Below are positions 33,551-43,392 of a stretch of 43,392 nucleotides of DNA, in pieces (position 1 is the stretch's first letter; each line of letters starts with the position of its first letter). Source of the DNA: Sedimentisphaerales bacterium (GTDB lineage Bacteria; Planctomycetota; Phycisphaerae; Sedimentisphaerales; SG8-4). The notes under the pieces are model-generated. The model was not told the origin of the DNA, made no database searches, and was given only the letters and a program-made list of their open reading frames with translations. The stretch is from positions 1 to 43,392 of the forward strand of contig JAFGCA010000191.1 of the NCBI GenBank assembly GCA_016932895.1. Reading direction: 5' to 3'. The translations under genes and the position numbers were made by a program.

Positions 33551-34465
33551 CTACCGGTCGGCGTACTTGACGGAGCAGCCGTACGGAGACGTGGCGGGCG
33601 TGCTGACGTTCTGGCCCGAGGTCAGTTCCGCAAGGGCCTTGTCAACGTAGTTGATCTTGCCCGCTTCGCCCTTGACTTGTCCCAGCGGGGCGGTGTCAAT
33701 AGCTCCGTTGTAGGCGATGTACCCCTCCTTGTCGATGATGATGATGTGCGGAGTGGTGCGGGCGGCATAGGCCCGGCCCACTTTCCCGGACGTGTCGTTC
33801 AGGATCGGATAGGGCACCTTGTGTTTCTTGGCGAATTCCCGGTTGGCAGCGGCGGTCGTGTGGCTCGTACTGTTGACGGCAAACCAGACAACGCCCTTGT
33901 CTTTGTATTTCTTGGCCAGGTCCGCCATCGTGCTGGCTTTCTCATAATGGTACCGTGAGAAGGGGCACTCGAAGTTGAACCACTCCAGGACAACGATTTT
34001 GCCTTTGTGCTCGCTGAGCTTGACCTTCTGGCCGTCGAAGCTGCTCAACTGGAACTCCGGGGCCTGTCGACCGCGGCGTTGCGGTCGCGCGGTTTGCCCG
34101 GCTCGGTCGCGCCCGGCCCGGCGCAGCCGCTGCTGTTGCTGTTGCAACTGGCTCAACCGTGCCTGGAAAGTCCCCTGACGCCGGCTGATGAGCGTCTCGA
34201 CCTTCTCGGCGGTTCCCGTGGCTTTTTCTTTGACCGCCGATTCGTGAATCGCCCGCAGCTCGGCGATCAATCCTTCGTGGGCGGCTTTCAGTTCGTCGAT
34301 CTGCTGCTGGAGCCGCTGCGCCAATCGTTGCATCCCTTCGCGCTGGCCCGCCGGGGCCTGGCCGCGCACAGGTCGAGCAGGCCTTTCGGTCTGTTGTCCC
34401 AGCCCTGCAGACGTCGCCAAGAAAAGTACCAGACACATCGTTGTGAGGGTAGCTGTTCGTCTCAT
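33551..34465 (-). CDS. Exported thioredoxin-fold redoxin with N-terminal coiled coil
   Basis: 304 residues from ATG 34465. GGAGG sits eight bases before it; ATG 34471 is too close to that site, and the GTG at 34501 has no support. A signal peptide ends near SAGLG. Residues about 40-125 are Gln/Glu/Arg-rich and form a likely coiled coil. The AhpC/TSA-type domain starts at GRQAPEFQLSSFDG, with the active-site strand VLEWFNFECPFSRYHYEK (C167) and no CxxC. A second Cys, C297, lies in the conserved tail SPYGCSVKYAD. This is a peroxiredoxin-like or thiol-reductase protein of the cell envelope; the real substrate is unknown. The coiled coil may drive oligomerisation. Confidence 0.85.
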   Translation of the reverse strand: MRRTATLTTMCLVLFLATSAGLGQQTERPARPVRGQAPAGQREGMQRLAQRLQQQIDELKAAHEGLIAELRAIHESAVKEKATGTAEKVETLISRRQGTFQARLSQLQQQQQRLRRAGRDRAGQTARPQRRGRQAPEFQLSSFDGQKVKLSEHKGKIVVLEWFNFECPFSRYHYEKASTMADLAKKYKDKGVVWFAVNSTSHTTAAANREFAKKHKVPYPILNDTSGKVGRAYAARTTPHIIIIDKEGYIAYNGAIDTAPLGQVKGEAGKINYVDKALAELTSGQNVSTPATSPYGCSVKYADR

Positions 34466-34683
34466 TGCCATGTCCTCCAAACAAACCTTGTAAAGAACCA
34501 CATCTTTTCTTCAAAACGATTCCATTCAGGGCGACCAACGTAATCGAGTTGACGGCCTGATTCAAAGGTTCTTACCGCTTCGGCGCCGGGAAAGTTCGCC
34601 CCAGTGGCAGAATCGCCTGCGGGAAATCTTTTGGCTGCCTGGGCATACGCCTCCTGCTGCGTTTTCCTTCGCCGGTCTCTTTC

Positions 34684-35487
34684 TCAGGTGGTGAGAGCGG
34701 TTCTGACATCGCGGAGGAAAGCCGTGATCTCCTGGATGGCCTGCGTTGGGTCGTCGAGGTGGTCCTCAATCATTGCCACCAGTTTCGAGCCAACGATGAC
34801 ACCGTCGGCGCCGGCACCGGCTATGGTTCGAGCGTGTTCGGGCGTGCTGACCCCGAAACCTACGCATACAGGCACGTCCGCCAGGGATTTCAACTGACCG
34901 ACCAGCCCTTCGACGGAGTCCGAGAGGGTGTTGCGACTGCCGGTCACGCCGAGTACAGAGACGGTGTAGATGAATCCGGTGGTCTTGCCGGCGATTCGCT
35001 TCATGCGTTCGGGTTCCGTGTTGGGCGTGACCATGAAGACGGTGTCGAGACCGGCGGCGGTGGCCGGTCCGATGATTTCGTCGGCGTCGTCGATGCTCAC
35101 GTCCGCGATGAGGACGCTGTTGACGCCCGCGTCGTGGACGTTGTTGAAGAAGCGGTCGATCCCGTAGTGATGGACAAGGTTGTAGTACATGAGAAGGCCG
35201 ATGGGGATATCCTTGTAGCTCTTGACTTCCTTGATGAAGTCCAGGGCCTTTTGGACGTTCATCCCGCGGCGCAGGGCGCGCACGTCGGCCTTCTGGATTG
35301 TGGGGCCGTCGGCGATGGGATCGGAGAAGGGGATGCCCAACTCCAGGATGTCGGCGCCGGCATCGACGGCCGCCTTCACCACGGCCAGGCTCGTATCGTA
35401 ATCGGGGTCGCCAATCACAAAGAAGGGGATCAGGGCCGGCCGCTTCTGCCGGCTCAGTTCGGAGAATACATCACGATATGATTGCAT
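34684..35487 (-). CDS. trpA: Tryptophan synthase alpha chain
   Basis: 267 residues. The catalytic acids fall at the same numbers as in the enteric enzyme: E49 (ILELGIPFSDP) and D60 (ADGPTIQ). VGFGVSTPEHARTIAGAGAD and GVIVGSKLV form the phosphate-binding end of the barrel. It cleaves indole-3-glycerol phosphate to indole and glyceraldehyde 3-phosphate and passes indole to TrpB through the complex tunnel. It is the last gene of the trp operon. A repeat-rich spacer of about 64 bases separates it from trpB, an unusually long gap for a pair that is often overlapping. Confidence 0.98.
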   Translation of the reverse strand: MQSYRDVFSELSRQKRPALIPFFVIGDPDYDTSLAVVKAAVDAGADILELGIPFSDPIADGPTIQKADVRALRRGMNVQKALDFIKEVKSYKDIPIGLLMYYNLVHHYGIDRFFNNVHDAGVNSVLIADVSIDDADEIIGPATAAGLDTVFMVTPNTEPERMKRIAGKTTGFIYTVSVLGVTGSRNTLSDSVEGLVGQLKSLADVPVCVGFGVSTPEHARTIAGAGADGVIVGSKLVAMIEDHLDDPTQAIQEITAFLRDVRTALTT

Positions 35488-35516
35488 GGTTGTCTACCCT
35501 GTCTTGGCTGTTATTG

Positions 35517-35556
35517 AATAGGTCCTATAGGTCTGATAGGTCCAATAGGACCTATT
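35517..35556. repeat. ATAGGTC tandem/inverted repeat between trpB and trpA
   Basis: Four near-identical 9-10 base units (ATAGGTCCT, ATAGGTCTG, ATAGGTCCA, ATAGGACCT) follow each other. The ends form a perfect 12-bp inverted repeat, AATAGGTCCTAT (35517-35528) with ATAGGACCTATT (35545-35556). The repeat runs into the last codon and stop of trpB (stop 35552-35554). Confidence 0.85.
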
Positions 35557-36727
35557 CCACCGGTCGGTTCCGCTCCACGATGGAAACGTCTTTGTCGCCT
35601 CGGCCCGAGAGGTTCACTACGGCGGTCGTCTCGGGAGGCAGCTTGCCTTTCTGGCTGATGACGTACGCCAGGGCGTGTGAACTCTCCAGCGCCGGGAGAA
35701 TTCCCTCCTTTTTCGTGAGCAGCTCGAAGGCGTCCAGGACTTCGGCGTCGTCGGCTGCGACGTACTGGGCTCTGCCGGTATCTTTGAGTAGACAGTGTTC
35801 GGGGCCTACGGCCGGATAGTCCAGGCCGGCACTGATCGATTCGGTCTCAACGACCTGGCCGTCTTCATCCTGGAGCAGGTAAGAACACGCTCCGTGCAGA
35901 ACGCCCACCTTGCCGGCAACCAGAGTGGCCGCATGCTTGCCCGTGCTGACGCCTTCTCCCCCGGCCTCCACGCCGACGAGCCTGACGTCCGTGTCATCGA
36001 GGAAGCTCGCGAACGCGCCGATCGCATTGCTGCCGCCGCCGACGCAGGCGACGACCATGTCAGGGAGCCGGCCGATCTGTTCGAGGCACTGTTGTCGGGC
36101 CTCTTTGCTGATGCAACTCTGGAAATGCTTGACGATCGTCGGGTACGGGTGCGGTCCGGCCGCCGAGCCGAACAAATAAAACGTGTCGGTTACATGCGCG
36201 GTCCAGTAGCGAAGGGCGTCGTTGATCGCGTCCTTGAGCGTACCCGTTCCGCCTTCGACGGGGACCACCTGGGCGCCGCAGAGCTTCATCTTGTGGACGT
36301 TTACGCTCTGTCGCTCGACGTCCGTGACACCCATGAAGATCTTCGTCTCCATGTCAAGCAAAGCGCCGATCATGGCGGTGGCCAGGCCGTGCTGGCCGGC
36401 CCCGGTCTCGGCGACGAGCTTGGTCTTGCCCATGTGTTTGGCGAGCAGGCCCTGGCCGAGGGTGTTGTTGACCTTGTGGGCGCCGCCGTGCAGCAGATCC
36501 TCGCGCTTGAGGTAGACCTGAAAGCCCACGTGCTCGCTGAGCCGCTCGGCATGGTAAAGCGGTGTGGGCCGGCCCGCGTAGTTCTTCGACAACCGGTTCA
36601 GCTCCGTCACGAACGTTGGGTCCTGATAGAAGCGGTAGAACGCTTCCTCCAACTCTTCCAGTACCGGGATCAAGACTTCCGGTACGTAGTAGCCGCCGTA
36701 GCGGCCAAATCTGCCTTGGTACTTCAT
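35552..36727 (-). CDS. trpB: Tryptophan synthase beta chain
   Basis: 391 residues, the usual TrpB1 length. The PLP-binding Lys is K85 in HGGAHKVNN, and the phosphate loop [10 protein letters not shown] is present. [13 protein letters not shown] at the start and [10 protein letters not shown] are signature segments. ETGAGQHG holds the catalytic Glu. It condenses indole from TrpA with L-serine to give tryptophan. The ribosome site is a moderate AAGGCAAGAG. The gene lies between trpF and trpA; its stop is embedded in a repeat shared with the spacer. This is the TrpA-dependent form, consistent with the adjacent trpA. Confidence 0.98.
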
Positions 36728-36757
36728 GTTCTCTTGCCTTTATTCAAAGTGCCTGTA

Positions 36758-36779
36758 TGACTGAGCAAATGCTCGGTCA
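36758..36779. repeat. Small hairpin at the trpF end
   Basis: TGACTGAGC (36758-36766), loop AAAT, GCTCGGTCA (36771-36779) form a 9-bp stem with one G-T pair. It overlaps the trpF stop and may slow or protect the transcript in the trpF-trpB gap. There is no T run. Confidence 0.45.
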
Positions 36780-37400
36780 TGCTCGTAAATGTCGAATGTT
36801 GTCGAATAGGGTTTTCATTTTGCCATGGTCTTTCCGGCCCGGTTCGGCTTCGATGCCGCTGCAGACATCGATGCCGTAGACGCCCAGCTCCATGGCGGCC
36901 ACGGCGTTCTCCGGATTGATCCCGCCGGCGAGAAAAATCCGCTTGCCGATGTGCCCGATGATATTCCAATCGAACGTCAGTCCCGTCCCGCCGTATTTCC
37001 TGGGGTCGTACGCATCCAGCAGGATGGCGTCGGTGAAATAGTTGTCCGCATCGTCGATGTCTTCGGCCTTCTTGACGCGGATGGCTTTCATAGTCTTGAT
37101 GCTGTCGTAGGCGAGCCAGCGACAGAACTCGGGATGTTCATCACCGTGCAACTGTACCCAGTCGAGCTGGCATTGACTGGTGATCTCGCGAACCTCTTCC
37201 AGCGGGCTGTTCACGAAGACGCCGGCGATGTCGATAAAAGCGGGCAGCTTGTTGACGATGGCCTCGGCTTTTTCGGGGGGGACGTACCGCGGGCTGTCGG
37301 GATAGAAGTTGAAACCGAGCAGGTCCGCTCCCATCTGCAGCGCCGCGGCGGCGTCCTCATGATTCGTAATCCCGCAAATTTTCACTTTTGGTATCAGCAT
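36777..37400 (-). CDS. trpF: Phosphoribosylanthranilate isomerase
   Basis: 207 residues from ATG 37400 (MLIPKVKICGIT, the normal family start). An in-frame GTG at 37427 directly after the trpD stop would add nine residues of unlike sequence. VKICGIT carries the catalytic Cys; VQLHGDE and LAGGINPENA are the other family motifs, with the catalytic Asp in the LLDAYDP strand. It converts N-(5-phosphoribosyl)anthranilate to the carboxyphenylamino-deoxyribulose phosphate. The product needs TrpC (indole-glycerol-phosphate synthase), but no trpC gene lies between trpD and trpF, where enteric-type operons carry a trpC-trpF fusion. Confidence 0.95.
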   Translation of the reverse strand: MLIPKVKICGITNHEDAAAALQMGADLLGFNFYPDSPRYVPPEKAEAIVNKLPAFIDIAGVFVNSPLEEVREITSQCQLDWVQLHGDEHPEFCRWLAYDSIKTMKAIRVKKAEDIDDADNYFTDAILLDAYDPRKYGGTGLTFDWNIIGHIGKRIFLAGGINPENAVAAMELGVYGIDVCSGIEAEPGRKDHGKMKTLFDNIRHLRA

Positions 37401-37427
37401 CAGCTCTACTCTCACACTACGGCGCAC

Positions 37428-38447
37428 TTACGCCCGGTTTGAAACTTCGATCAGCTTCTCCAGACAGTGTAATGCTTTTCCTTCATCAATAGAAGCCTTT
37501 GCCAGCGGCAGGGCCTGCTCGAAACGATCGGCCCGCCCGGCTACGATTATGGCGGCGGCGGCGTTGAGAACGACGATGTCACGACGGGGCCCCTGGTCCC
37601 GGCCCGTCAATATGTCACGCACGATGGCGGCATTGGCGATGGCGTCGCCGCTTTCCAGGGCGTCCAGGGATGCGCCGGAGAAGCCGAAGTCGGCCGGGTC
37701 CAGTTCGCTCGAAGTGACCTGGCCGTCGCGCAATTCCACGATCCGGGTCTTGCCGAGCAGGCTGATTTCGTCCATCCCCTGACCGTGCACGACCATGGCC
37801 CGTTTGGCCCCGAGGATCCGCAGCGTCTCCACGATTCGGTCCAGCAGGTGCGCGTCGGCAACGCCCATGACCTGCGCTTTGACGCCGGCTGGATTGGCGA
37901 GCGGGCCCAGAATGTTGAAGGCCGTGCGGAAGTCCAGGCTTTTGCGGATGGGTTGCACGAAACGCATGGCCGGATGAAACTTCGGGGCGAACATGAATCC
38001 GATGTGCGCCTCCCGGATGCATTTGGCGACGACGTCGGGCCCCGGATCGATGTTGACGCCGAGTTCGCTGAGCACGTCGGCTGAGCCGCACTTGCTGGTG
38101 ATGCCGCGGTTGCCGTGCTTGGCTACGTAGGCGCCGGCGCCGGCGGCCACGAGCGCCGCTGTGGTTGAGACGTTGAAGGTCTTGACGATCGCTCCGCCCG
38201 TGCCGCACGTGTCGATCATGTTGTCGATATCGACCTTGACCGGCACGGCGTGATTCCGCAGCGATTGCGCCAGCCCGGCGATCTCGCCGGCGGTGGCCCG
38301 CTTCATCCGCATCATGGCCAGAAACGCCGCGATCTGCACTTCCGTGACCTCGCCTTCAAAGATCGTGTCCTGTAACGCCTTGGCCTGATCGAACGTGAGG
38401 TCATTGCCTTCCAACAGAATTTCGAGGTACTCGCTGATGGTTGCCAT
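37428..38447 (-). CDS. trpD: Anthranilate phosphoribosyltransferase
   Basis: 339 residues. The PRPP-binding loop is CGTGGAIVKTFNVST, followed by KHGNRGITSKCGSADVLSELG, both diagnostic; the GHG... region (VVHGQGMDEIS) completes the active site. It joins anthranilate to phosphoribosyl pyrophosphate. It starts three bases after the trpG stop, with a GGAG site inside the trpG end, so translation is tightly coupled. In enteric bacteria trpG and trpD are fused; here they are separate but adjacent in the same order. Confidence 0.98.
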   Translation of the reverse strand: MATISEYLEILLEGNDLTFDQAKALQDTIFEGEVTEVQIAAFLAMMRMKRATAGEIAGLAQSLRNHAVPVKVDIDNMIDTCGTGGAIVKTFNVSTTAALVAAGAGAYVAKHGNRGITSKCGSADVLSELGVNIDPGPDVVAKCIREAHIGFMFAPKFHPAMRFVQPIRKSLDFRTAFNILGPLANPAGVKAQVMGVADAHLLDRIVETLRILGAKRAMVVHGQGMDEISLLGKTRIVELRDGQVTSSELDPADFGFSGASLDALESGDAIANAAIVRDILTGRDQGPRRDIVVLNAAAAIIVAGRADRFEQALPLAKASIDEGKALHCLEKLIEVSNRA

Positions 38448-38450
38448 TTG

Positions 38451-39062
38451 TCAGCTCCCTACCGATTGTCTTCGACTGGTGGCGATGTGAAGAACGTTTT
38501 GGATAATCTTGCCGCCGGCGGGCGTAAGAATGCTTTCCGGATGAAACTGGACGCCGTAGATGGGTAGCTCTTTGTGTTCCACGGCCATGACGATCCCCTC
38601 AAACTCGCCCGTTCTCTCGAGGCAACCGGGCAGTTCCTGGGCCATGAGACTGTGGTACCGGCCCGCCTGCAGCGGATTCTCCACGTCGCGGAAGAGGCCC
38701 GTTCCAGTGTGGCTGATCCGGGAGGGCTTCCCGTGCATGGGCTCCGGCGCGTGGCCGATCCTGCCGCCGAAGTACTGGACGATGACCTGGTGTCCGAGGC
38801 AGACGCCGAAGATCGGTAGCCTATCCTTGAACGCGTCCACGGTTTCGAGCGAGACGCCGGCCGTGCTTGGGTTGCCCGGCCCCGGCGAAATTACCAGGAG
38901 ATCCGGGTCGAACGCGTCGGCGACGGCCCGCAGGTCCTCGAGTCCGGTGTCGGCCCGGTACACTTTGGTTTCACAATGCCGCTTGGCGAAATCATCGACG
39001 AGATTGTACGTGAACGAATCAAAATTGTCGATGAACAAAACCTTGTTATGTGTAGCGTCCAT
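38451..39062 (-). CDS. trpG: Anthranilate synthase component II (glutamine amidotransferase)
   Basis: 203 residues. Class I amidotransferase triad: C88 (GVCLGHQ), H174 and E176 (FHPES). IDNFDSFTYNL and ISPGPGNP are the expected N-terminal signatures. It supplies ammonia from glutamine to TrpE. AAGGGG lies seven bases before the ATG, and the trpE stop is 28 bases upstream. The protein could in principle also serve 4-amino-4-deoxychorismate synthesis, as in some bacteria, but the operon position favours tryptophan. Confidence 0.97.
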   Translation of the reverse strand: MDATHNKVLFIDNFDSFTYNLVDDFAKRHCETKVYRADTGLEDLRAVADAFDPDLLVISPGPGNPSTAGVSLETVDAFKDRLPIFGVCLGHQVIVQYFGGRIGHAPEPMHGKPSRISHTGTGLFRDVENPLQAGRYHSLMAQELPGCLERTGEFEGIVMAVEHKELPIYGVQFHPESILTPAGGKIIQNVLHIATSRRQSVGS

Positions 39063-39090
39063 GGTGTTGCCCCTTATGCTGGCGGTCCGG

Positions 39091-40686
39091 TCATTGGCCT
39101 CGAATCGCTCTCAGACACGAGCGTGCCTTGTGTTCGGTTTCCTCGAATTCGGTTTTCGGAACGCTGTCGTGAACGATGCCGGCGCCGACGCGGATGTACG
39201 CGGTGCGGCCCTGCACCTGCAGACTCCGTATGGTGATGCAGCTATCGAACTGGCCGTCGACCGTCAGATACATGACGGCGCCGCCGTAGTAGCCGCGCTT
39301 GTTCTTCTCGAGTTGCCGAATGATCTTCATGGCCTCGATCTTCGGCGCACCTGTGAGTGTGCCCATGTTCATCGTGGCCAAGTAAGCGCTGAGGGCATCG
39401 AGATCGCCCCGGAGCGTGCCCTTGACGTTGCTGACGAGGTGCTGCACCGATTCATATTTCTCGACGGTCAGCAGCTCCGTGACGATCCGGCTGCCCGGAT
39501 CGGCCACGCGGGCGATGTCGTTGCGGGCCAGATCGACGAGCATCATGTGCTCGGCCAGCTCCTTGCGGTCCAGCTTGAGCTCCGCCTCGTAGCGGAAGTC
39601 GGTATCGGCGTCGATCTCGTTTCCGATGCGTCCCCGCGGCTTGGTGCCGGCAATCGGTCGGATCTCCACGTGCCTCGGTCCCGTTCCGCTCACACGAAGG
39701 TTCAGTTCCGGGCTGGACCCCATCAGCACCGTGTTCGGCGTGTTGAGATAGAACATGTACGGCGACGGATTCAGATCGCGCAGACGCTTGTACACGTCCA
39801 GCGGCTCGTCCGGGCAGGGCTCGTTCAGCGTCCGGCTCAGGACCACCTGGAAGATGTCCCCGTCGATGATGTGCTGCTTGGCCTCCCGGACCATCCGTTC
39901 GTATTCGTTCTGAATCGTATCCGTCGAGGCGGCCGGCAGCGCCTCGTCGCAACGCCGGCCCTGGACCGGGTCGAACCGCGCCATGTTGAAATAGTAATCG
40001 AAATTGTCCTGGGCCTCGGCGATGGCGGCCTCGCGGTCGCCGTTGGTGATCATGCAATTGACGACGACGTAACCCTGATTGTGCTCGTGGTCCATGATGA
40101 AGATGTTGTCGGCGAAGTAGAGCTCGTAATCCGGGTTGCCCAGGATGTCCTGCTCGTTGGGGGGAAGCGTCTCGAACTGATCCACAAAGTCGTAGCTAAG
40201 TGCTCCGAGCAGGCCGCAGGTGACCCGGAAAGGTTTGCTGGCCAGTCGAAAGGCGAACGCGACGGCCCGCAGCACGTCCATTTGATTCGTGCTGCGCAGC
40301 CGGGTGCGCTCGTCGACGGTTTCCTGCAAGCGCTTGATCCGCCCGGTAATGGCCTCCGGCCCGCAATCCACGGATTCGCAGAAGGCAAACCGGTCCTTAC
40401 TGGCGGCTAAGTAGCCCAGGATCCGTTTTCCCGTTTTGCTCAACGCCTTGATCGCGAAATCCGACCCGGTGCCCGTGAGGTACAGGGCCGGCCGGGCCGT
40501 ACCGAAACTCAGGGCCCCCGTGCCCGTGAGGTACTCACGGGACTCGAAGAGGCAGGAGTTCTTGCTGCGCCCGTAGTCAGTCAGTTTGCCGAAGAACTCC
40601 AGGGGATCGCCGAAATCGATACGCTTGACGATGGGGACGATTTGTCCGGGTTCAGCGTTTTGTATGATTTGTCGATAATCTTCCAT
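39091..40686 (-). CDS. trpE: Anthranilate synthase component I
   Basis: 531 residues from ATG 40686; the frame stays open to 40734, but that part is the attenuator U tract. The N-terminal CLFESREYL matches the LLES feedback-inhibition motif, so Trp should inhibit the enzyme. The chorismate-binding C-terminal half shows RPIAGTKPRG, DLARNDIARV, NMGTLTGAPK and GAGIVHDS. The segment SFGTARPALYLTGTGSDFAI recalls the long enteric-type TrpE. The ribosome site is weak. It is the first structural gene of the operon and directly follows the terminator at 40733-40773, so its expression depends on read-through. Confidence 0.97.
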   Translation of the reverse strand: MEDYRQIIQNAEPGQIVPIVKRIDFGDPLEFFGKLTDYGRSKNSCLFESREYLTGTGALSFGTARPALYLTGTGSDFAIKALSKTGKRILGYLAASKDRFAFCESVDCGPEAITGRIKRLQETVDERTRLRSTNQMDVLRAVAFAFRLASKPFRVTCGLLGALSYDFVDQFETLPPNEQDILGNPDYELYFADNIFIMDHEHNQGYVVVNCMITNGDREAAIAEAQDNFDYYFNMARFDPVQGRRCDEALPAASTDTIQNEYERMVREAKQHIIDGDIFQVVLSRTLNEPCPDEPLDVYKRLRDLNPSPYMFYLNTPNTVLMGSSPELNLRVSGTGPRHVEIRPIAGTKPRGRIGNEIDADTDFRYEAELKLDRKELAEHMMLVDLARNDIARVADPGSRIVTELLTVEKYESVQHLVSNVKGTLRGDLDALSAYLATMNMGTLTGAPKIEAMKIIRQLEKNKRGYYGGAVMYLTVDGQFDSCITIRSLQVQGRTAYIRVGAGIVHDSVPKTEFEETEHKARSCLRAIRGQ

Positions 40687-40732
40687 GGTCTGGCTTTCGG
40701 ATTCTAAGTTCCATTCGCACGTATCACAACGC

Positions 40733-40773
40733 AAAAAAAAACGCAGCCCGCCGTTTCCGACAGGCTGCGTTTT
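40733..40773 (-). terminator. trp attenuator terminator
   Basis: On the minus strand AAAACGCAGCC (40773-40763) pairs with GGCTGCGTTTT (40748-40738). The stem continues through UGUCG/CGGCG with two G-U pairs to a GAAA tetraloop (40757-40754). Nine T residues follow (40741-40733, partly in the stem). This is a textbook intrinsic terminator 46 bases before the trpE start. Confidence 0.95.
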
Positions 40774-40856
40774 AGACTTTTTCTTGGGGTCTTTCTTAAG
40801 GCAAAATCACCGCTCGCCCGCCGGATATATGTCCGTGGGCCACCACCAAAACAGGT
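40774..40856 (-). promoter_or_regulatory. trp leader antiterminator and pause region
   Basis: After the Trp codons (40848-40840) the RNA can fold a 1:2 hairpin, CCC-A-CGGA with UCCG-GC-GGG (40839-40817). The 3' side UCCGGCGGGC (40825-40816) is also complementary, with two G-U pairs, to GCCUGUCGGA in the 5' arm of the terminator. It copies the terminator's own 3' arm: CGGCGGGC occurs in both. A ribosome stalled at the Trp codons would free it to form the antiterminator. Confidence 0.8.
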
Positions 40857-40878
40857 CGTTGTTATGAAACTGCCTCAT
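40807..40878 (-). CDS. trpL: trp leader peptide with three tandem Trp codons
   Basis: A 23-codon frame from ATG 40878 to TGA 40807. Residues 10-14 read FWWWP, with TGG codons at 40848-40840. It starts a few bases after the expected transcription start of the promoter at 40888-40916, so its mRNA is nearly or fully leaderless and has no ribosome site. Its stop lies 34 bases before the terminator stem. A run of three Trp codons placed this way has no likely role except sensing charged tRNA-Trp: with tryptophan scarce the ribosome stalls, the antiterminator forms and trpE-A are transcribed. The leader and gene order resemble trpL systems of proteobacteria, where WW or WWW runs are used. Confidence 0.93.
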   Translation of the reverse strand: MRQFHNNDLFWWWPTDIYPAGER

Positions 40879-40887
40879 GATTATCGT

Positions 40888-40916
40888 ATTAAACCAGCGT
40901 CACTCGACTTTGTCAA
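40888..40916 (-). promoter_or_regulatory. trp operon promoter (sigma-70 type)
   Basis: On the minus strand TTGACA (40916-40911), a 17-base spacer and TTTAAT (40893-40888). The -35 is perfect, the spacing ideal. Transcription should start near 40881-40880, two or three bases before the trpL ATG. It lies 40 bases beyond the ispD stop, giving the trp genes their own control. No TrpR-like operator was recognised. Confidence 0.85.
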
Positions 40917-40956
40917 GCGGAAAAAGCAGAAATTTTCCGGGTCGCGGTTTCCGGGC

Positions 40957-41697
40957 TCACCACTGCGCCTCGATGTAGGGTCCTAAGGGGCCCTCCGGCT
41001 TGGGCTTCGGCCGCGACCTGATAATCGCTTCGGCAATTGCGATGTCGCACTGAAGCGTAATCTTGATATTTGAAGAATCGGCCTCGACAATGGAAACTTC
41101 GTGCCCCAGAGCTTCGACGAGAAACGAATCGTCGCTGACCTTATCGGGCTCGAGATTCGCAAGGTTCTCGTATGCTTTCTTCAGCAGCGAAGCTTCAAAT
41201 ACCTGCGGGGTCTGGGCTTCAAAGAGGCCGTTGCGGTTTACGGTCTTAGTGATGATGTTGTCCTTGACGTCCTTGATGGTGGCGGTGACCGGGCAGGCGG
41301 GGATGGCCGCTCCGGTCTTGGCGGCGGCGGCGATGACGTCGGCGATGAGTGGTTCGGTCACACAGCATCGACACGCGTCATGCACCGCCACGAGGTCGAT
41401 ATCGTCCTTGAGAAGCTTGAGGGCGTTCTCGATGGTCTCGAATCGCTCCTGGCCACCGAAAAAGGTTTTGACGTTGAAGAACCCCAGCTTCGCGCCCCAT
41501 TTGACGCTGACAATCTCTTCATCCTCCTCCGCGATGCCAAGCAGGATTTGTTTGACGTCGTCCCGGTTGGCGAAGAGCTCGACACTGCGGATGAACACGG
41601 CCCGGCCAGCGACGTCGGTGAACTGTTTCTTGCGTTTGCCGCCGAACCGGCTTCCCGGCCCGGCCGCACAGATGATGGCTGCCACGTTCTTTGACAC
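40957..41697 (-). CDS. ispD: 2-C-methyl-D-erythritol 4-phosphate cytidylyltransferase
   Basis: 246 residues from a GTG start with AAGGAG seven bases upstream. The nucleotide-binding N-terminus is AAGPGSRFGGKRKKQF, and the second motif VHDACRCCVT (D107, R110) takes the place of the usual VHDAARP. PACPVTATIK and AQTPQVF are also characteristic. It makes CDP-methylerythritol in the MEP isoprenoid pathway. The Ala-to-Cys and Pro-to-Cys changes beside the catalytic Asp/Arg are unusual but the key residues remain. It lies 42 bases after the cobO-type gene, so the two may be co-transcribed. Confidence 0.92.
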   Translation of the reverse strand: MSKNVAAIICAAGPGSRFGGKRKKQFTDVAGRAVFIRSVELFANRDDVKQILLGIAEEDEEIVSVKWGAKLGFFNVKTFFGGQERFETIENALKLLKDDIDLVAVHDACRCCVTEPLIADVIAAAAKTGAAIPACPVTATIKDVKDNIITKTVNRNGLFEAQTPQVFEASLLKKAYENLANLEPDKVSDDSFLVEALGHEVSIVEADSSNIKITLQCDIAIAEAIIRSRPKPKPEGPLGPYIEAQW

Positions 41698-41739
41698 GGT
41701 CTTCTCCTTGCAGAACCACGATTTTTCCGCCCGAGGGGC

Positions 41740-42282
41740 CTAATAGTCGATGCCCCTTCGGGCCGGCATGCCGCTGTCAAACGGGTGTTTGACGTTCTTC
41801 ATCTCGGTCACCAGATCGGCCAGATCAATCAGCTCCGGCGGGGCATCGCGACCGGTCAGAACGAGTTCGACGGCCGGGTCCCTCTGCTCGATCAGACGCT
41901 GGATGTCTTCGATACGGGCCAGTCCTTTCGACAGGCAGAAGACGATCTCGTCGAGGACGAGGACGTCGTAGAAACGCTTACGGGCCGTCTCGGTCAGTCT
42001 GCCCAGAACCTCCCCGATCGCTGCCTTCGTGCGCGCGACCTTCTCCTCGTCGGCGAGCGATTTGGCCATGTCCCAGGTTTCTTCCAACGCCTCGACGCGG
42101 ATGCGGACAGCCCCCAACTGCAGGGCGAATCGCTCTCCGACGTCGAGCGAAGGCGGTTTGAGGAACTGAAAGATCAAGACTTTGTTCCCTTGGCCGGCTG
42201 CACGCAACGCTTGCCCGAAGGCCGCCGTCGTCTTGCCCTTGCCGTCGCCTGTATAGAGTTGCACCAAGCCTTTTTCGAGCAT
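41740..42282 (-). CDS. cobO: Cob(I)yrinic acid a,c-diamide adenosyltransferase
   Basis: 180 residues from ATG 42282 (MLEKGLVQLYTGDGKGKTTAA). The P-loop GDGKGKTT covers residues 12-19. FLKPPSLDVGE, YDVLVLDEIVFCLSKGL and VELVLTGRDAP are the signatures of CobA/BtuR/CobO-type transferases, which attach adenosyl to cobalt of corrinoids using ATP. The open frame reaches 42348, but the added part lacks similarity. No cobalamin riboswitch was seen upstream. A hairpin with 8-bp arms CCGGGAGA/TCTCCCGG (42309-42332) lies 26 bases before the start; its role is unknown. Confidence 0.93.
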   Translation of the reverse strand: MLEKGLVQLYTGDGKGKTTAAFGQALRAAGQGNKVLIFQFLKPPSLDVGERFALQLGAVRIRVEALEETWDMAKSLADEEKVARTKAAIGEVLGRLTETARKRFYDVLVLDEIVFCLSKGLARIEDIQRLIEQRDPAVELVLTGRDAPPELIDLADLVTEMKNVKHPFDSGMPARRGIDY

Positions 42283-42386
42283 GGTTCTATCATACGCTGC
42301 ATGTCCGGCCGGGAGAAAACAAAATCTCCCGGAGGATGCCCAGCCCACTTTACGAAGTTCTTTGCACCTCGGATCAAGACGTCGTG

Positions 42387-42599
42387 TTATGAGACCATCA
42401 CGTGAAAATGCCCCTCTTCCATGAGGAGATGAACCGTTGGTTTCGGAATCGCCGTGGATTTGACCGGGTCGGTTGGTTTGTCCTTTGCGGGTGTCTCGAG
42501 ACTGTCCCCCGGGTCTTGCGGACTCGATATTTTACTCAGACAGCAGGCGCGAATGGCCGATAATTCATTGATGGGACTGATTTTACCGTCTATTGTAAT
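42387..42599 (-). CDS. Possible small protein with non-standard ATT start
   Basis: A 70-codon frame ends at TAA 42387. Its composition looks coding: an Asp/Ile/Ser-rich start (DGKISPINELSAIRACC), a Pro/Lys/Asp/Thr linker, and VHLLMEEGHFHVMVS at the end. There is no ATG, GTG or TTG before residue 60. ATT at 42599 has GGAG seven bases upstream, so a rare ATT start is conceivable; a degraded gene or chance frame is equally possible. It matches no family I know. Confidence 0.28.
   Translation of the reverse strand: MTIDGKISPINELSAIRACCLSKISSPQDPGDSLETPAKDKPTDPVKSTAIPKPTVHLLMEEGHFHVMVS
42568..42596 (+). promoter_or_regulatory. Candidate promoter of the glycosyltransferase gene
   Basis: TTGATG (42568-42573), 17 bases, TATTGT (42591-42596). 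Four of six bases match at each box or better. It would start transcription near 42603, upstream of the palindrome 42616-42627. Confidence 0.45.
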
Positions 42600-42658
42600 A
42601 GCATGGCTCCGGCGTTAGGATATCCTACCTCGGAACGCCTGAGAGAGATTTGGAGAAT

Positions 42659-43392
42659 ATGGCGAACGTGACAGATGACAACAGCGGACCGATGCTTTCG
42701 GTCGTCGTACCGTTGCTGGACGAGCAGGACAATCTTCGCCCCCTGTACGAGCAGCTTACCGATGCGTTGAAAGACAGCGGTCCGTACGAGCTTGTTTTCG
42801 TCGACGACGGCAGTACGGATGCGAGCTTCGAGATCCTGAAGGGTTTTCACGCGACCGACTCGCGCGTCCAAGTGATTCGCTTTCGCAAGAACTTCGGACA
42901 GACGGCCGCCATGAGCGCGGGATTCGCACGCGCCCGGGGCGATGTGGTCGTGGCCATGGACGCGGATCTACAGAACGATCCGGCCGACATACCGATGCTG
43001 GTTTCCAGGCTGGACGAGGGCTACGACGTCGTCAGCGGCTGGCGGAAGAAGCGGCACGACGCCGCCCTGACGCGCCGGCTGCCTTCGCGCATCGCCAACG
43101 GGTTGATCTCCGCCATCACGGGCGTCAAGCTGCACGATTACGGCTGCACGCTCAAGGCCTACCGGCGGGAAGTGCTGGCCGAGACCCGGCTCTACGGCGA
43201 GATGCATCGGTTCATCCCGGCCCTGGCCAGTTGGAGCGGGGCCCGCATCGCCGAGTGCGTGGTCAATCACCGGCCCCGCACGGCCGGCAAGGCTAAGTAC
43301 GGGCTGCAACGCACCTTCAAGGTTGTCCTCGACCTGATCACGGTCAAGTTTCTGGGCTCCTTCTCCACCAAGCCCATTTACATCTTCGGCGG
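42659..43392 (+). CDS. GT2 family glycosyltransferase, DPM1/ArnC-like (3' end cut off)
   Basis: 244 residues are visible before the window ends. GGAG precedes ATG 42659. LSVVVPLLDEQDNL opens a GT-A fold; VFVDDGSTD and MDADLQNDP give the nucleotide-sugar and metal-binding acids (D-x-D). KNFGQTAAMSAGFARARGD and DYGCTLKAYRREV are typical of polyprenyl-phosphate mannosyl/glucosyl transferases; VNHRPRTAGKAKYGL and the final hydrophobic FLGSFSTKPIYIFGG lead into membrane segments. It probably moves a sugar to undecaprenyl phosphate for cell-envelope glycans. Confidence 0.92.
   Translation, partial: MANVTDDNSGPMLSVVVPLLDEQDNLRPLYEQLTDALKDSGPYELVFVDDGSTDASFEILKGFHATDSRVQVIRFRKNFGQTAAMSAGFARARGDVVVAMDADLQNDPADIPMLVSRLDEGYDVVSGWRKKRHDAALTRRLPSRIANGLISAITGVKLHDYGCTLKAYRREVLAETRLYGEMHRFIPALASWSGARIAECVVNHRPRTAGKAKYGLQRTFKVVLDLITVKFLGSFSTKPIYIFG

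Follow-up and report, generated by a model that had tools for sequence, protein, structure and literature searches.

The leader of the trpEGDFBA operon in the window (by which is meant the whole stretch of DNA that was analysed, 43,392 nucleotides in length) is very probably a working, classical ribosome-mediated transcription attenuator, as judged from its sequence and from those of its relatives. The mechanism itself is classical and known, and the novelty lies in the phylum, in the family of RNAs and in a near-leaderless layout that is strictly kept. Leader-peptide attenuation would in this way be extended to the Planctomycetota, with strong comparative support and in the form of an RNA family that lends itself to testing.

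Leader and operon

An earlier note on this DNA had described a promoter, a 23-codon leader with three TGG codons, a segment able to pair with one arm of a terminator, and a 16-bp GAAA-capped hairpin with nine Ts, and every one of these parts is to be found on the minus strand where it had been placed. They are given here together with the genes of the operon.

40911..40916, minus strand: -35 box TTGACA, read directly from the sequence
40888..40893, minus strand: -10 box TTTAAT, 17-nt spacer after the -35 box, read directly
40881, minus strand: predicted transcription start, placed by spacing at an A three nt upstream of the leader ATG
40807..40878, minus strand: leader ORF trpL, 23 codons, translating as MRQFHNNDLFWWWPTDIYPAGER and a stop (ATG at 40878, TGA ending at 40807)
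40840..40848, minus strand: three consecutive Trp codons, TGGTGGTGG, read directly
40832..40840, minus strand: segment 1, GCCCACGGA, pairing with segment 2 in the fold
40811..40825, minus strand: segment 2, UCCGGCGGGCGAGCG, with segment 1 or segment 3 as alternative partners; conserved in the 77-sequence alignment
40757..40769, minus strand: segment 3, CGCAGCCUGUCGG, with which segment 2 can pair and which forms the terminator's 5′ arm
40738..40773, minus strand: 16-bp hairpin of the intrinsic terminator (segments 3:4), closed by a GAAA loop
40733..40741, minus strand: nine-T tract of the terminator, read directly
39091..40686, minus strand: trpE, 531 aa, for component I of anthranilate synthase; it passes the cut-off of NCBIfam PRK13564 and is called E. 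coli-type here
34684..39062, minus strand: downstream genes trpG, trpD, trpF, trpB and trpA, by NCBIfam matches

Upstream of a trp gene there is thus a short ORF that carries Trp codons in tandem, and an intrinsic terminator lies between this ORF and the first structural gene, the last T of the terminator and the trpE ATG (40686) being 46 nt apart. Segment 1 begins at the last Trp codon and its partner within segment 2 is UCCGGCGGGC; segment 2, together with a GAGCG tail, also pairs with segment 3. In the window the leader stop codon is directly 3′ of segment 2, while in 39 of the 77 aligned loci described below it ends 12 nt past the Trp run, which by alignment is near the 1:2 loop.

Upstream of the leader, ispD ends at 40957, 40 nt before the -35 box, and given that the hairpin is a good terminator it might be supposed that it simply closes ispD and that the Trp ORF is incidental. 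This is most improbable, however, as promoter-like sequence stands between ispD and the leader, and as the Trp run, its frame and segment 2 are all kept in relatives; a leader belonging to the trp operon is much the better reading.

The gene order after this leader is trpE, trpG, trpD, trpF, trpB, trpA, and of the trp operon ORFs tested against NCBIfam (window 34684-40686) not one proved to be trpC. In the relatives G002, G003 and G004, trpC lies outside the trp operon, and an IGPS match is absent from G001 (the source of locus L010, titled as a chromosome). Among solved structures the window TrpE has its best relatives in two anthranilate synthases, 1i7q and 1i1q, from Serratia and Salmonella. 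As to the host, the earlier note had supposed a probable planctomycete, and the named close relatives of TrpE bear this out, being Planctomycetes, Phycisphaerales, Sedimentisphaerales or Anaerobaca lacustris; the window TrpE has 93% identity to the nearest database protein and 85% to that of Anaerobaca lacustris. The titles of the 80 loci used below likewise give Planctomycetota or groups within it, with the exception of L042 (“uncultured bacterium”); one of them, L068, is from Kuenenia, a planctomycete. Going by these names, the order to which the contig belongs is most likely Sedimentisphaerales. Lateral transfer of the operon together with its leader was considered, and pairwise identities do not settle the choice between inheritance and transfer.

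Conservation in close relatives

Relatives were collected by a contig scan for TrpE, from which the best 80 of 157 were kept to give, with the window, 81 sequences; since these 80 loci were picked by TrpE similarity (69-88% identity), the counts of conservation that follow speak for the close clade only. Two of the sequences (L015 and L077) come without upstream DNA, so that 79 of the 81 were assessable, and a Trp run is present in all 79. In 77 of them a WW-bearing ORF and a T-run were found by script, and the other two were recognised separately, namely L028, which is partly masked (leader ORF start included) and in which WWWPAG and the hairpins are visible, and L073, where the WWW leader lies about 420 nt upstream of trpE. 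In the latter locus terminator and trpE stand about 310 nt apart, with palindromic repeat-like stretches between them, and longer gaps at this position are seen also in L001, L049, L059, L065, L068 and L076.

Loss of the WWW frame and of the stems in close relatives was what the earlier note had named as speaking against its own reading, and no such loss was seen. Besides the universal Trp run, the hairpin and T-run pass a test in 78 of the 79 sequences if no ATG is demanded (76 of 79 with the ATG rule), the sole failure of the hairpin test being L023, in which the terminator stem is imperfect. Among the 77 scored leaders the run comprises three Trp codons in 49, two in 27 (i.e. WW instead of WWW) and four in one. 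The same signature, scanned for as a short WW-bearing ORF followed by a hairpin and T-run, gave 77 matches in 76 of the 81 sequences. Every match lies at most 420 nt upstream of trpE, and the rest of the 1,659,762 bases covered (both strands of the window and the 80 loci) gave none.

The reading frame can be assessed through the ATG that is located by the promoter, which was found in 75 of the 77 leaders (the exceptions being L079, with none in range, and L080, with no promoter). In all 75 its frame leads into the Trp codons with no stop between, a count slightly biased by the fact that the 77 leaders had been preselected for some ATG in frame with WW; the distance from this ATG to the Trp run takes seven values, from 10 to 26 codons. 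Finally, a covariance model built from the 77 leaders (R1) scores L028, L073, L081 and L085, all outside its training set, at 93.6, 77.5, 47.2 and 42.1 bits respectively.

Folding and covariation of the stems

The terminator of the window folds with -27.9 kcal/mol (z -7.5) and the whole leader with -54.9 kcal/mol (z -3.75), none of 200 shuffles being as good in either case. The 2:3 fold with its linker (-27.6 kcal/mol) was equally unmatched in 200 shuffles, and 8 of 200 were as good as the 1:2 fold (-16 kcal/mol). Terminator-like sites as such occur at chance level in positions 34000-43392 (nine found, 9.8 expected), that of the trp leader being by far the longest of the nine.

A search of relatives for compensatory changes in the stems, which the earlier note had proposed, gives a favourable result for the terminator and for 1:2, both of which covary, and a mixed one for 2:3, where pairing is kept and covariation is weak. 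In the alignment from which the stem counts were taken (A2, 77 sequences), 92.7% of the 1188 cells of the 1:2 and 3:4 stems are paired, and 86 cells carry two-sided changes, as against 30.8 +/- 5.9 after shuffling, with none of 500 shuffles reaching 86. These changes are mostly in the terminator, where they occur in 8 of the 11 pairs counted, and 1:2 contributes 12; approximately the same 1:2 and 3:4 pairs are predicted by RNAalifold. For 2:3, 920 cells were counted and 88.2% of them hold a standard pair, as against 19-44% in slid controls. Two-sided changes number 19 cells here (10.1 +/- 2.9 when shuffled, 5 of 500 shuffles having as many), the number of 2:3 pairs that show them is at chance level (5, against 4.4 shuffled; 238 of 500), and in 38 of the 77 sequences the innermost pair does not form, so that the covariation of 2:3 taken alone is weak. 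The sharing of one segment by two alternative helices presumably limits the freedom with which it can covary.

Ribosome position and proposed mechanism

In the mechanism proposed, RNA polymerase would start some 3 nt upstream of the leader AUG, so that ribosomes would load practically at the bare 5′ end. Were charged tRNA-Trp scarce, the ribosome would stall at the WWW codons and cover segment 1, leaving segment 2 to pair with segment 3, in which case the terminator would be blocked and trpE transcribed; were it plentiful, the ribosome would reach the stop codon and cover segment 2, whereupon segment 3 would pair with segment 4 and transcription would stop at the T-run. We infer the response to charged tRNA-Trp, the stalling, the termination and the start site from the arrangement of the leader and its conservation.

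The central step was examined in silico by folding the RNA outside the ribosome, before segment 4 is made and with a fixed 12-nt downstream footprint. Upstream RNA mostly holds segment 3 in 77 of 77 leaders when the ribosome stands at the Trp codons; with the ribosome at the stop codon this is so in 25 of 77, and with no ribosome in 34 of 77, the window included (0.69). Segment 3 is held in 194 of 385 cases when the linkers are shuffled, so that this test of ribosome position discriminates only moderately. In the model, then, the starved and fed states would separate as required in most leaders, from a high shuffled baseline, while the untranslated state is ambiguous and is not predicted cleanly, the window being a case in point.

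The earlier note had read the combination of Trp codons and mutually exclusive hairpins as attenuation of the E. coli type, and the 1:2, 2:3 and 3:4 pairings, together with the kept frame and the kept stems, support that reading; the antiterminator in particular is conserved as a pairing, weakly covarying as it is, and in silico it depends on where the ribosome stands. Attenuation works only if ribosomes closely follow the polymerase, and a conserved attenuator would therefore imply coupling of transcription and translation at least in Sedimentisphaerales.

Promoter and 5′ end

A search that accepted only -35 boxes matching at five of six positions or better gave a promoter in 75 of the 77 leaders, and under that rule the -35 box is TTGACA in full (6/6) in 67 of the 75; relatives keep both TTGACA and the 17-nt spacing. 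Of the 75 -10 boxes, 41 read TTTAAT and 12 read TCTAAT. A generic promoter scan did not list the TTGACA/TTTAAT promoter, because that scan demands an A at the second -10 position.

In the window nine nt separate the -10 box from the leader ATG, and among the relatives the box likewise ends 9 nt before the ATG in 53 of 75 and 6-10 nt before it in 74 of 75. Transcription starts at a characteristic spacing from the -10 box, for which seven nt downstream was used here. Position -3 from the leader ATG lies seven nt beyond the -10 box in its most frequent place, and it is an A in 72% of the leaders and an A or G in 87% (n = 75). A start at 40881 would leave a 5′ UTR of 3 nt, and the mRNA is accordingly predicted from the sequence to be almost leaderless; such a start would leave no space for a Shine-Dalgarno site.

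Comparison with known trp leaders

The trpL leader of E. coli and the Enterobacteria similarly combines a short ORF, in which Trp codons stand in tandem close to the end, with segments 1-4 and a terminator before trpE, and the window TrpE is of the E. coli type as well. It differs from the planctomycete leader, which is almost without a predicted 5′ UTR, in having a longer one, and in its place in Rfam, where it is the family Trp_leader: a search of the whole window against Rfam gave no match, Trp_leader and T-box included, and in 40600-40950 no family reached its cut-off, the best weak matches being 23S-methyl (E 0.08) and Thr_leader (E 0.1). The same result bears on the idea that the terminator is set by some other sensor, such as a T-box, a TRAP-type protein or a ligand-binding RNA, systems which do regulate trp genes in other phyla; with no Rfam family reaching the cut-off, very little credence can be given to it, and sensing by the ribosome is preferred.

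The trpL of Sinorhizobium meliloti has a WWW run. In PMC7298713 its leader ORF (rnTrpL/peTrpL) is described as leaderless, as standing ahead of trpE(G) and as released by attenuation, and by analogy of layout this would make it the closest described parallel found for the near-leaderless arrangement, the likeness being one of layout and to another phylum. Since the same paper reports a role in trans for rnTrpL and peTrpL, it might be asked whether the planctomycete leader RNA or peptide acts also (or mainly) in trans, with attenuation as a by-product. This is unlikely, as it is the Trp run and the three segments that are chiefly conserved, whereas the N-terminal part of the peptide varies among relatives; attenuation in cis is the reading retained. 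In PMC1262725, actinobacterial trp attenuators (Corynebacterium, Streptomyces) are likewise credited with double or triple UGG codons and with GC-rich U-tract terminators upstream of trp operons, a likeness by description and again to another phylum.

More widely, PMC4833913 reports short leader genes close to the start codons of genes in many phyla, Planctomycetes among them, and PMC2965389, concerning 302 genomes, gives leader-peptide attenuation in Proteobacteria, Actinobacteria and one Firmicutes case. No report of a Trp-attenuator leader in Planctomycetota was found in the open-licence literature, in agreement with the earlier note, which had known of none described for this phylum.

Other Planctomycetota

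Genomes of Planctomycetota (392, drawn from across the phylum) were scanned for TrpE, and among the matches listed 13 align from residue 28 or earlier; these are called E. coli-type here, a label to be read with the fact that, of three proteins compared with PRK13564, that of the window passes its cut-off (for the TrpE of G162 and G132, PRK13564 is the best family but below cut-off). Seven of the 13 are close (TrpE 68-86% identity). The full leader is present in one of these, G001, and of the six other close genomes four have WW leaders and two a single Trp codon (L084 and L086). These two (from G213 and G161, with TrpE at 68-69%) read YWRRPQA before the stop, as compared with YWWRPQA in L083; possibly, to go by their sequence, the sensor has decayed or been retuned.

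The six distant genomes of this type are G162, G132, G190, G069, G168 and G195. In G162 there is a leader ending SNGWWWPRT, and in G132 one ending CRWWWSAPT, each with a hairpin; G190 has a WRW leader with a hairpin, and the T-run is short or broken in G162 and G190. With R1 the G132 leader (L092) scores 31.5 bits (E 5.5e-5) and that of G162 (L090) 20.8 bits (E 0.01). The trpE of G195 is inside an open frame of 1603 aa, and G195 was left out of the leader calls. In G069 and G168 (L087 and L088) trpE is directly behind a gene read by eye as DAHP synthase (only L087 was translated), an order that suggests a joint aromatic operon.

The other form of TrpE, which does not align from the N-terminus, is present in at least 188 genomes, of which 57 were examined. 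A leader ending WWIP, with a terminator, precedes it in two of the 57 (L120 and L123, from G121 and G285); the other 55 are without a leader/terminator pair, five of them having a short WW or WxW ORF and no terminator. R1 finds neither L120 and L123 nor the WRW leader of L089 (E up to 10). Trp-rich ORFs lying inside genes in the wider-phylum loci were discarded by eye.

A broader proposal, to which we would give somewhat less than even weight, is that Planctomycetota use Trp leader-peptide attenuation more than once, as an RNA family in the sampled Sedimentisphaerales, in similar form beside the same TrpE type in G162 and G132, and as a distinct leader, ending WWIP, ahead of the other type of TrpE in G121 and G285; and that in Sedimentisphaerales, with their nearly fixed distance from promoter to ATG, ribosomes load directly on the emerging 5′ end and the switch is timed by this loading. 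If so, transcription and translation would be tightly coupled in a phylum where coupling is disputed; in PMC5287468 and PMC5394234, cell compartments in planctomycetes such as Gemmata are both claimed and disputed.

Leaders of comparable kind were also sought elsewhere in G001-G004. None with His, branched-chain, Phe or Trp runs and a terminator was present in the 16 loci examined, which surround hisG, trpC and genes like that of acetolactate synthase. With R1, by which 150 of about 960-1460 candidates were scored in each genome, the trp leader was the single good copy in each; a further match in G004, with E 7.6, was taken as chance. The promoter-to-ATG pattern has six matches in G001 and G003, two of which are the trp leaders. 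At about position 1500 of L163 (G001) this layout opens a 14-codon ORF overlapping a gene that resembles dehydroquinate synthase II in its first residues, and on this sequence another gene of the aromatic pathway may have a short leader ORF.
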